In this document: positions 41,995 through 46,216 of the stretch, in pieces
Numbering within the stretch: position 1 is the first letter of the stretch
Layout of the letters: the number at the start of each line of letters is the position of its first letter
NCBI GenBank assembly: GCA_014871385.1
Contig: CM026424.1
Coordinates: 3,599,131-3,663,130 of the forward strand
Length of the DNA stretch: 64,000 nt
Source of the DNA: Ceratodon purpureus
Taxonomy: Eukaryota > Streptophyta > Bryopsida > Pseudoditrichales > Ditrichaceae
Reading direction: 5' to 3'
Translations under genes and position numbers: made by a program
Notes under the pieces: model-generated
Told to the model about the DNA's origin: nothing
Database searches by the model: none
The model's input: the letters and a program-made list of their open reading frames with translations, nothing else

Positions 41995-42856
41995 TTAACC
42001 CTTTAGTGCCCAGGGTTTTTTTCCAGCAACTCTGATTTTTACCGTTTTCTGCGCTATTCTTGGAATCTACAAAAACAGGTTCGCATTGTTGTATATCTAA
42101 CCATATAGTACTGTAGCAAAGGATAGTAGAATACTATGGGCAAAACATGGACCCAATCCAACCGTGGGAAGTTGAAGTGTATAATCCGTATATGGGGGAC
42201 AAAAAGTTTGCAGTTTTGTGTATTTTTCCAAGGAGTGTAAGTTTGGAACCCCACAAATCTCGGAATAAATTTCTAAATTTAGTAAAAGAGCTGTTCAGCT
42301 ATGTCCCATGTTAAAATCTCCAAGATAAATCAAAAACATATATGTGCAAAATTACAAAAAGATTTAGAGGAATTTTAAGATTTAGTCATGGAAACAATGT
42401 ACTGTTTAGGGTGTTTTTGGTACATTGGGTCTCATTCATATGACTCAAATGTAATGCAATCCACAACGGTTGAAAAGTTAGAATGGAGGCATAAAAGAAT
42501 AAAAGTAAAAAAAAATCCTCAAATCTACTGTATTTTCCTCTAAATACACTATATGTACACTATTATTGCAATACCGTAGAAACAACGCTGTACATCTTTC
42601 CAGCAATCAAACATGAGTCTTCTTTCTAGACTATCATCCACCTCCGTTACCAAAACCAACTGAAACGGCCACATATATGTCCAAGTGACTCAAATGCAAA
42701 ACATTGCTCCATTGGGAACGTTCAGAGAACAACCATCTTCTGTCCAATGAGAATGAAGGAGCTGCGAATTCCCAAAGTCAGCTGAAACCGTTGCAAGGAA
42801 CCACTGTCAGTTGAAACCAGCGAAAGAAAAAAAACGGTTGCACCCTACTTGGTCAC

Positions 42857-43102
42857 TCAGAAGCTGTAAGTGTCCACTTGGGTAAAGGTCATCTTATCCC
42901 CACACTTCAGCTTGTTCTCCTTGCAAAACTCTCTCCAGCCAACGGTGAAGTGGCACTGCGTCTGAGCTGCATTCACAGCTACAGCAGTTGAAACTCGGAC
43001 AGTGGACTTGTTGCCAATTAGTTTATACTTGAATCCATCGAAATTCCCTGACCCCAGCCTGCGCCAAAACTTAGTTGGAATGTCGTACAGTAGGAAATAC
43101 AC
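42857..43102 (-). pseudogene. B3 DNA-binding-domain fragment inside the piggyBac element
   Basis: About 81 codons of a plant B3 domain: LLYDIPTKFWRRLGSGNFDG (the Pro-x-x-FWR...GNFDG entry), FKYKLIGNKSTVRV, then CHFTVGWREFCKENKLKCGD, KMTFTQVDTYSF and stop. GWxEFxxxNxLxxGDxxxF is the classic B3 C-terminal signature. There is no in-frame ATG at its head (upstream stop close by), so it is an exon or truncated piece. B3 proteins are plant transcription factors that bind DNA. It lies 1.1 kb downstream of the captured UGPase exons, on the same strand. Confidence 0.75.
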
Positions 43103-43912
43103 ACGTTAGACAGCAATCTTCCTCTTCTCTCTTGATCCTACACGCTAAAGGAATGTGTAACTACATTCAAGAATTGTTTCAGAATTGCGAAAACAAAAGC
43201 AGACTATGACAGTGTATTCCAATTCTCCGTCTCCACTGCATCATTCACATCCGAAACCAAGAGCTCACGATTCGAATAAATCAAAACGGACACAAATTTC
43301 TGTACAACACCAACCAACAGTTCTCAAAAAAACGAGCAAACGCAACACCATCTCACGCTCTATACAAAAAAACCATCCCATCCCAGCAACTGTTTCAGCC
43401 ACTCCAGGTAAAACATACTCAAGCCCATGACTCATAACACATTCGTAGATCAGTCCTGTAGAAGTTTGACCTAAGCCACTCCCCAGATCCACCAACAACC
43501 TCCGAATCCTACAACAAATCCTCCAACAAAACCCCGAAAGCAATCCCCCACAACTGCAACCTTGAAATCCCAAGAACAAACTGACCCACGAAGCCATACT
43601 CATCAAACTAAAATACAAGTGGCGCTAATCAACCAGCACATGAAGTAGGAATGCGAAGCACACGAACGTAAGCACTCTCTCCGAATCCCAATCCACCACC
43701 TTAACCCAAACCACTCAACCTCGACAAACAAATCACAGGAACAGCCTCGGTAGAATCTCCGGAGCAACGATCTGAATGACGCAACTGAACGAACACCAAC
43801 ATCCATGTGGCTTCGACTTTCAACGAAAGCACACGCAACAAATCATGCGACCAGTGACCGAGCAGCTACACGACCAGACAAAGCTCAATAAATACAGCTG
43901 GGTCGCAAGGGT

Positions 43913-44053
43913 CACTAGTAGAAATATGGTCCTTAAGGACTCGTCCGTAATGACTTAAATGGTCCAAAATGACTCAAATTGAGTGAAAATGAGTCATTTT
44001 GGACCATTTAAGTCATTACGGACGAGTCCTAAAGGACCATATTTCTACTAGTG
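43913..44053. mobile_element. CACTA-type palindromic MITE 1 (141 bp)
   Basis: Starts CACTAGTAGAAAT and ends ATTTCTACTAGTG, with a 3-bp target duplication GGT on both sides. Nearly the whole element is one hairpin of about 62 bp per side with one mismatch (TTAA versus TTTA) before the loop region. CACTA termini with 3-bp duplications fit the CACTA superfamily. It is nested within the piggyBac element, so it is younger than that insertion or was carried by it. Confidence 0.9.
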
Positions 44054-44224
44054 GGTCTTTGGTGTTACTTCTATGCAGTACTCATTTTGGTTCTCGACCA
44101 GATGATTCAAAATTTCTAGTTCCAGGTCAAAGTCACTCACATTTATGGAAATTTAAAAAACAATGCTAAGTAGGAAACATGCCAATGCCTAATGATAGAG
44201 CCAGGAAAGTAATAATTTGAATAC

Positions 44225-45305
44225 TGAGATCGACAATCGCCCCCAGGTTGTCGGAATTAGCGATGAAAACGTACTCCTTGCCCTGAACAACAGTACGGTA
44301 GAAGAATTAGGGCATTGCTAATGATATTCAAAATTAAAACATCCATGAACTCCTGTTGAAAACCAACTGAGTCATACTTGGGCAATGAGCTCATCGAGCT
44401 TTCCGGAGTTACCAAGTGACGGGAACACATCACCGTGACCAGGAGGGTACCTGCCACTGTCCGGGAAGAGCCGGCGGTTAGTTACAAGGCTACCGGATGG
44501 ATTTGGAAAATAACTGGTAGATTTTCAAGGATAGAGGCAAATCACCGGATCAAATGATTGAAAAATAATTATATCTAGTATTCATAGACATGATATACTG
44601 GGTATAATCTAAAAAAACCGGCTGCTTTTTGAAAATAGTGGAAATAGGCTGGTTGGCTCAGAAACCTTCCCGAACAGTGGTACCTGCAAGTAAAATATGC
44701 AGAAACGTCAGATTTGACTTCCATCGTATACAAAGTCGCATGTTTACATCAGTTATTGTAAATTCATACAAAGGAGAGCTATCTTACCAGCCAGCATTGT
44801 CCGTCTTGCCCTTGGCAGGCCATGGGACCATGTCCTCTGCAACAACGCGAAGGTACTGGCTCTGCAATTGATGACCAGCACATCACCGTTAATTATGTTC
44901 CACACAAAATGTAAAGATAAATTGGCAACAAAGATAAGAACAAACCTTCGGATAGTGAGTAAGAAGTAAATGGCACCTAGTTGAAAGTGATGACCTCCAA
45001 CTTCGAGTCTTTGTATCTCTCTATAATCTGGAAAGGAAATATAAATATCAGATAAGTGTTGAATACTGCTAATAATATCACAATAAGATGATTCTTGAAC
45101 GAAAGGAGGACAAATTTGGAAGAATAAATAGCGAGTCACATGAGGAGTTCAAAAAAAAACAAGTTTCCCAACATAACGCAAATCTAAATACAAACATATA
45201 TACGTAAAACAATGGAGAAGGTTGAAGCCCGTAACATAAATCAGCTCACAAACCTTTAGAGTATCATCGTGCGTGTTGAATGAGTTCATCAAAACCAGAG
45301 GCACG
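44225..45305 (-). pseudogene. UGP: Captured UDP-glucose pyrophosphorylase fragment, five exons
   Basis: UGPase makes UDP-glucose from glucose-1-phosphate and UTP in the cytosol. On the minus strand: exon A 45305-45254 (VPLVLMNSFNTHDDTLK), B 45027-44977 (IIERYKDSKLEVITFN), C 44861-44788 ([24 protein letters not shown]), D 44450-44378 ([24 protein letters not shown]), E 44282-44225 (GKEYVFIANSDNLGAIVDL). All five have GT-AG borders, and the phases join as in the family. Only the central substrate-binding part is present, about 96 of roughly 470 residues; no start or C-terminal half. The codon after ITFN, usually Gln, is TAG, so the reading is broken. Introns are retained, so the capture was at DNA level. 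Confidence 0.93.
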
Positions 45306-46216
45306 CTGTCAACTCAGTCATACCTGTTGAAAACATAAACAATGCACGGATGCATAGATCATTACCCTAAACCATGCAAAAACTCGTAGATTAGAACCCT
45401 AAACAATGCACACACACATGCTTCATTCACCAACATGAACATGGAAATCAAGATTTCTGAAACCCCCTCAATACCCCACATACCCAACACAAGCTCTCTA
45501 AACCTGGCGCTCCCTCATAAACCATAGCCGTCAAACGAGAGAGAGAACTCAATGCAGAGCTCAGATTCCAACCTCCACGACGACATCAAACCTCCAAACC
45601 CTCCATCGTGATCTGTGACTAATCCCCTGGAGCCACCTACACCACCCAAACAGTTGGTAGCAGAAGAAAAATCCATGAATCCACATGCACAGGCTCACAC
45701 AGGGAACAACAACACACACCCAGGGGCGAGGGAAACCACGATCTGAGACAACAATAGATGTTGCTCACACATCCCGCGACCTCTCTCGAGGAGCAGCTTC
45801 ACGAGCAAGGCGATAGTGATAATTGACCATTATCGAGAACACTACTGAGAACGAATGGAGAACACGTTCGAATCACGAGGGGAACAGGCTTCCCAGATCC
45901 CGGGAATTTGCTGCGTGACAGAAGTTCATCCCACCGAGGCCACTCTCTTTTGTACGCTTTTCTCTGTATTCTCTTCTATTCTGCTTATCTTTTGCTCACA
46001 GATTGTCTCCGTATACTGCTACAGTGACGTATTCTTGTCGATTTGAAGCCTCTACACTACTCCGAATTGAGATCTGATTGTTGCATTGTGAGCCCCTCAG
46101 AAGAACGTAAATCTGAACAGGTATAATTGAGATCAAATTCATTTTGGATTTTGAGTTATTCATCTCCAACTGAGTTTTGCAACCACATTATGGTTCCCTG
46201 GGCACTAAAGGATTAA

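Follow-up and report, generated by a model that had tools for sequence, protein, structure and literature searches.

A decayed TTAA-flanked element of probable piggyBac type enclosing UDP-glucose pyrophosphorylase exons in Ceratodon purpureus

The Pack-TYPE elements known from plants are assigned, in the accessible text of the packFinder paper, to the MULE, CACTA, hAT, PIF and Mariner superfamilies (PMC8903248). The nearest prior idea of gene capture by an element targeting TTAA concerns the TTAA MITEs of corals, whose internal region was suggested, without proof, to stem from host DNA by transduplication (PMC2872659, accessible sections). A 2026 review of plant gene capture mentions neither piggyBac nor TTAA (PMC13317346), the term 'Pack-piggyBac' has no occurrence in the literature searched, and there is no plant piggyBac with captured genes among the literature matches listed, an absence that is weak evidence as subscription papers are thinly covered there. 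The view of the earlier note that piggyBac is unusual in land plants has to be tempered in the light of several reports, each accessible in part: a fern assembly has 1,230 PiggyBac entries amounting to 122,417 bp (PMC6890710), one survey has PiggyBac in every taxonomic group that it studied (PMC4438587), insects, fungi and plants have all yielded piggyBac (PMC10813416), and a review counts PiggyBac as one of seven angiosperm MITE superfamilies (PMC10004981). The accessible text of a study of 207 plant genomes places MITEs primarily in five superfamilies, with piggyBac not included (PMC12550479).

We analyzed a 64-kb stretch of the genome of Ceratodon purpureus, referred to here in its full length as the window, and focused on a 4.2 kb element at 41999-46212 (Table 1). 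The TTAA duplications reported for it are present at both borders, and the reported 16-of-17 agreement of its inverted ends is likewise confirmed. The sole mismatch between the 17-bp terminal inverted repeats (TIRs) is at the outermost base, with CCC on the left and TCC on the right. Within these ends lie fragments of one and probably two plant genes on the minus strand, and no transposase was found. Thus, the locus has the makeup of a Pack-TYPE element, namely TIRs and a target-site duplication (TSD) around coding-gene fragments.

Table 1. Features of the element and its borders, in window coordinates
Feature	Position	Strand	Basis or remark
Left TTAA target-site duplication copy	41995-41998	.	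sequence match
Left terminal inverted repeat CCCTTTAGTGCCCAGGG	41999-42015	+	inverted-repeat comparison
Left internal region past B3 stop	42016-42856	.	without Pfam family
Probable captured 3' coding end of B3-domain gene; approximate borders	42857-43090	-	Pfam PF02362
Segment separating B3 and UGPase fragments	43091-43903	.	without Pfam family
Last two UGPase-like codons, past nested MITE	43904-43909	-	spliced reading
GGT, left target-site duplication of MITE	43910-43912	.	sequence match
Nested CACTA-like MITE, 141 bp, splits UGPase exon 6	43913-44053	.	inverted-repeat comparison
GGT, right target-site duplication of MITE	44054-44056	.	sequence match
UGPase exon 6, first part	44054-44115	-	protein alignment and spliced reading
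UGPase exon 5	44225-44282	-	spliced reading
UGPase exon 4	44378-44450	-	spliced reading
UGPase exon 3	44788-44861	-	spliced reading
UGPase exon 2, last codon stop, Q in relatives	44977-45027	-	protein alignment
UGPase exon 1 of fragment, in-frame stop near start	45254-45323	-	spliced reading
Right internal region	45324-46195	.	neither UGPase exon nor Pfam family detected
Right terminal inverted repeat TCCTTTAGTGCCCAGGG	46212-46196	-	outermost base unlike left
Right TTAA target-site duplication copy	46213-46216	.	sequence match

The principal cargo is about 1.4 kb of a plant-type UDP-glucose pyrophosphorylase (UGPase) gene. The exons number six, not five as first counted; the introns (five, of 226, 115, 337, 95 and 109 bp) and correct splice borders of that account stand, with GT-AG in 5/5, a count that is not independent since the exon borders were set by similarity and splice signals together. 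The span 44,225-45,305 originally proposed for alignment does lie within the UGPase fragment, and it leaves out exon 6 as well as the opening bases of exon 1. The spliced reading of 131 codons, including two in-frame stops, matches the Pfam UDPGP family (E 6e-51, profile 102-227 of 413) and 16 distinct PDB sequences, the best being 5weg (217 bits, residues 135-260 of 476), which we take to be the sugarcane protein, followed by 1z90 (At3g03250) and 2icx at 215 bits, with the remaining 13 at no more than 140.4 bits. The fragment is identical to 5weg at 97/126 positions and to 1z90 at 93/126, as against 99/126 between these two relatives, and hence appears little changed at the protein level. As the introns are retained, the UGPase portion was copied from genomic DNA rather than mRNA; it is now a pseudogene.

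The two breaks of this fragment differ in kind. On the downstream side, the alignment ends inside exon 6 straight after KTLA, where its relatives presumably carry on. On the upstream side, an acceptor AG directly precedes the first exon of the fragment, and tblastn, which also missed the 51-nt exon 2, detected no preceding exon in the rest of the element. The break on this side would accordingly lie within an intron, or else the intron would fill the remainder of the element, and the right internal region may start with captured UGPase intron. A tblastn search of the whole window with a UGPase sequence recovered five of the six exons and no further exon at E <1.0, though very short exons can escape such a search, as the 51-nt exon 2 did; a continuation of the exons outside 41,999-46,212, which the earlier note had named as refuting its reading, was not seen.

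A second fragment, overlooked in the initial description of the captured content as UGPase exons, is a B3-like reading at 43090-42857 of the minus strand, which ends GWREFCKENKLKCGDKMTFTQVDTYSF followed by a TGA stop. It matches PF02362 with E 2.1e-7 and 31.3 bits, where the cut-off is 30.1 (profile 42-87 of 101); in a six-frame Pfam scan of the element the same match attains 25.7 bits, which is under the cut-off. Against PDB sequences it returns four weak matches (E 0.3-1), namely NGA1, labelled a B3 protein in PDB, RAV1 and At1g16640, which we take to be B3 proteins, and the unrelated CusF. B3 domains occur in plant proteins. Judging from these profile and sequence matches, we propose with moderate confidence that this stretch is the 3' end of a B3 gene and a second captured gene. 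The left internal region beyond its stop would then presumably derive from the B3 donor's 3' flank, from the element itself, or from both. This probable second gene strengthens the Pack-type anatomy.

The element has been damaged by the two in-frame stops, by the altered outermost base at its right end, and by a nested MITE. The latter has 64-nt arms that are 98% complementary and ends reading CACTAGTAG...CTACTAGTG. CACTA elements are characterized by a CACTA end motif and a 3-bp TSD; the CACTAGTAG ends, the 3-bp GGT duplication and the short inverted-repeat body of this MITE agree with such an affinity. The near-identity of its arms suggests that it arrived late. The element as a whole is most likely without any action now.

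Taken together, these observations indicate that 41999-46212 is probably a Pack-TYPE element, decayed and of piggyBac type. We favor, with reasonable confidence, the explanation that it is a decayed, non-autonomous piggyBac-type transposon carrying DNA of two host genes, UGPase and probably B3, both on the minus strand. The fragments would have been copied in from elsewhere, probably when the template was switched in the course of replication or of break repair; as proposed from the example of Pack-TYPE elements, the transposase of a related element would have acted on the short ends, with the element integrating into a TTAA. For the capture itself three routes are conceivable: the filling of a gap, fork stalling with template switching, and aberrant excision in neighbouring copies. 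The first two routes are discussed in the accessible text on animal Pack-TIRs (PMC8277862), and the third, involving neighbouring copies, was proposed for Pack-CACTA elements (PMC13317346, relevant passage). Excision of piggyBac is repaired footprint-free (PMC7351741, accessible text) and thus leaves little gap, so that we lean towards a replication-linked switch over the filling of an excision gap. No inner TIR is left as a sign of two adjoining whole copies. Two other architectures were considered and discarded: a macrotransposon of two complete piggyBac copies, there being no inner TIR and a best internal match of 11/17, and a nested Helitron carrying the genes, there being on either strand no CTRR-T with a perfect hairpin, stem 7-11, in front of it.

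The strongest competing possibility, which we consider markedly less likely than the favored one, is that the gene fragments were gained in place by break repair and that the element never moved with its cargo, and hence was no mobile Pack element. It is a variant within the preferred explanation and its likelihood overlaps with that of the latter. Consistent with it, single-copy animal Pack-TIRs come mostly from transposition-independent gap filling according to the accessible text of PMC8277862, and just one copy of the present element is known from the window and from viral and prokaryote contigs, in which the host is not expected. Thus, blastn (E up to 1e-3) finds no stretch resembling the element elsewhere in the window; the exact 21-base sequence of the left end is absent from the viral contigs, a collection not expected to include the plant host, and the exact 21 bases of either end, matched via Y, are absent from the prokaryote contigs, where the host is equally unexpected. 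Within the window, 12 sites match the first 13 bases of the ends with up to three mismatches, against 12.8 expected, and those with 0-1 mismatch are the element's own two ends. On the other hand, the median captured size in that animal data is 224 bp, as against about 1.4 kb for UGPase alone here, and 160 cases (56.9%) lie within 15 kb of their source (both from the accessible text of PMC8277862), whereas tblastn detected no UGPase source in the window, which extends only ~18-42 kb either side of the element.

The superfamily assignment draws on the ends. Members of piggyBac target TTAA and have 12-19 bp TIRs starting with CCYT (PMC10175614; PMC2872659), a motif required for transposition (PMC2872659); a paper on insect MITEs also gives TTAA for piggyBac (PMC5199201), and in one animal survey CCCTT is the best-conserved start, with CACTA, CCCTC and CCCAT also recorded (PMC10813416), all in the accessible parts of these papers. 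The element has the TTAA duplication and 17-bp TIRs, of which the left end, CCCT, fits the motif and the right end, TCCT, is one base off. As CCYT is needed for transposition, this copy may be immobile now. With an E limit of 1, a six-frame Pfam scan of the element found no transposase domain; besides UDPGP and B3 it returned only YlcJ (0.051) and DUF1207 (0.14), both below cut-off, in a scan that mostly dropped weak matches above ~0.1. The right flank (46213-52212; plus strand, three frames) has no Pfam family. The one tblastn match of a piggyBac transposase in the window (E 0.31, 39 residues including a stop, inside the element) was taken as a chance match. The earlier statement that there is no transposase thus agrees with both the six-frame Pfam scan of the element and the tblastn search. 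With neither a transposase nor a second copy found, the piggyBac label is read from the TTAA and the CCYT left end alone, and piggyBac is, from these terminal sequences, probably the best assignment. Accordingly, the description as a Pack-type piggyBac is borne out as to its Pack anatomy, with TIRs, TSD, intron-bearing fragments and no transposase found, and is more guarded as to its piggyBac half, which comes from the ends.

Other transposons too insert at TTAA, Sola3 among them. That the genes were captured by a TTAA-targeting element of another superfamily, such as Sola3 or an undescribed one, appears unlikely: the assignment was made from the ends with no transposase found, which leaves room for it, and the CCCTTT start suits piggyBac. 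Kolobok, which also uses TTAA, was rejected because its ends are 5'-RR...YY-3' (PMC9587614, accessible text) and the termini of this element are CC and TC.

It is highly improbable that a cluster of gene fragments is bounded by these inverted ends through coincidence, even though the copy is single and nothing is common to the subterminal regions: the best inverted and direct subterminal 12-mers were equalled in 31/40 and 32/40 simple shuffles, respectively, and no longer or repeated subterminal motif exceeds the shuffle level. Among the 17,432 pairs of TTAA sites in the window that are 150-10,000 bp apart, 17 show TIR agreement at 14 or more of 17 positions, and 16 of these sit within far longer inverted repeats, which leaves the pair at 41999-46212 as the only one free of an enclosing long inverted repeat. 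When the window was dinucleotide-shuffled 60 times, the best TTAA pair reached 14/17, in 6 of the 60, and none exceeded it. A plain calculation gives ~8e-5 expected TTAA pairs of at least 16/17, a figure that is several-fold too low, since the same formula predicts 0.03 pairs of at least 14 per window, as against the 6/60 shuffles with one. Finally, there is next to no likelihood, despite the intact introns and splice borders, that the exons belong to an ordinary UGPase gene and that the element is illusory, given the two stops, the end of similarity within exon 6 and the lack of any other UGPase exon in the 64 kb window by a search that missed the short exon 2.

The window has further repetitive structures. 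Two inverted arms, 11080-24170 and 27220-40311, each 13.09 kb long and 99.95% identical (5 mismatches, 1 gap), are separated by a 3.05 kb spacer; they may constitute a giant palindrome of recent origin or else an artefact of the assembly. Each arm carries a GSK3/shaggy-type kinase gene, as detected by tblastn, and a tRNA-Met(cat); at gathering thresholds Rfam reports only a tRNA pair. The kinase points, together with the UGPase and the B3 match, to a plant host. Just outside the arms lie direct repeats, 10535-10844 and 40866-41174, which are 87% identical in two ungapped pieces. Inverted repeats of 184 nt at 4245-4428 and 7223-7406, 93% complementary, enclose ~2.8 kb including an array of imperfect palindromes (4930-6637) centred on a CGGATCCGAG-like sequence; 4245-7406 is perhaps another non-autonomous element. 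At 49336-49476 there is a MITE-like palindrome, perfect throughout its 70-nt arms, which flank a 1-nt centre, and two long CT microsatellite tracts lie ~1 kb apart within 8432-9544.

Piggybac-type capture, if true, would extend plant gene capture beyond MULE, CACTA, hAT, PIF and Mariner. A superfamily with gapless excision would then be a natural case in which to test gap filling against fork switching as models of capture, and plant annotation should also look for TTAA elements. We further put forward, tentatively and as a conjecture with the odds against it, that a plant piggyBac lineage takes up and moves host exons with their introns, thereby representing a further Pack-TYPE superfamily in which seamless excision forces capture into replication-linked template switching.

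In its TTAA duplication and its 17-bp TIRs, which begin with CCYT at the left end and are one base off at the right, the element resembles the piggyBac superfamily and the piggyBac/TTAA MITEs with their 12-19 bp CCYT TIRs; it differs from them in being 4.2 kb long, in containing recognisable plant gene fragments and in that no transposase was found. Teratorn of medaka likewise has piggyBac-type ends around foreign cargo, but is a fish element of 180 kb that is fused to a herpesvirus and has its own piggyBac-like transposase gene (PMC10175614, accessible text). Animal Pack-TIRs are, like this element, TIR elements with captured host DNA, and differ in being from animals; piggyBac is absent from the accessible main text of that study, in which the superfamilies are given in figures and supplements (PMC8277862). 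Unlike the plant Pack-TYPE elements of the packFinder paper, whose accessible text has no mention of piggyBac, the present element has a TTAA target and a CCYT left end; like them, it is non-autonomous, with TIRs and a TSD around coding-gene fragments (PMC8903248).
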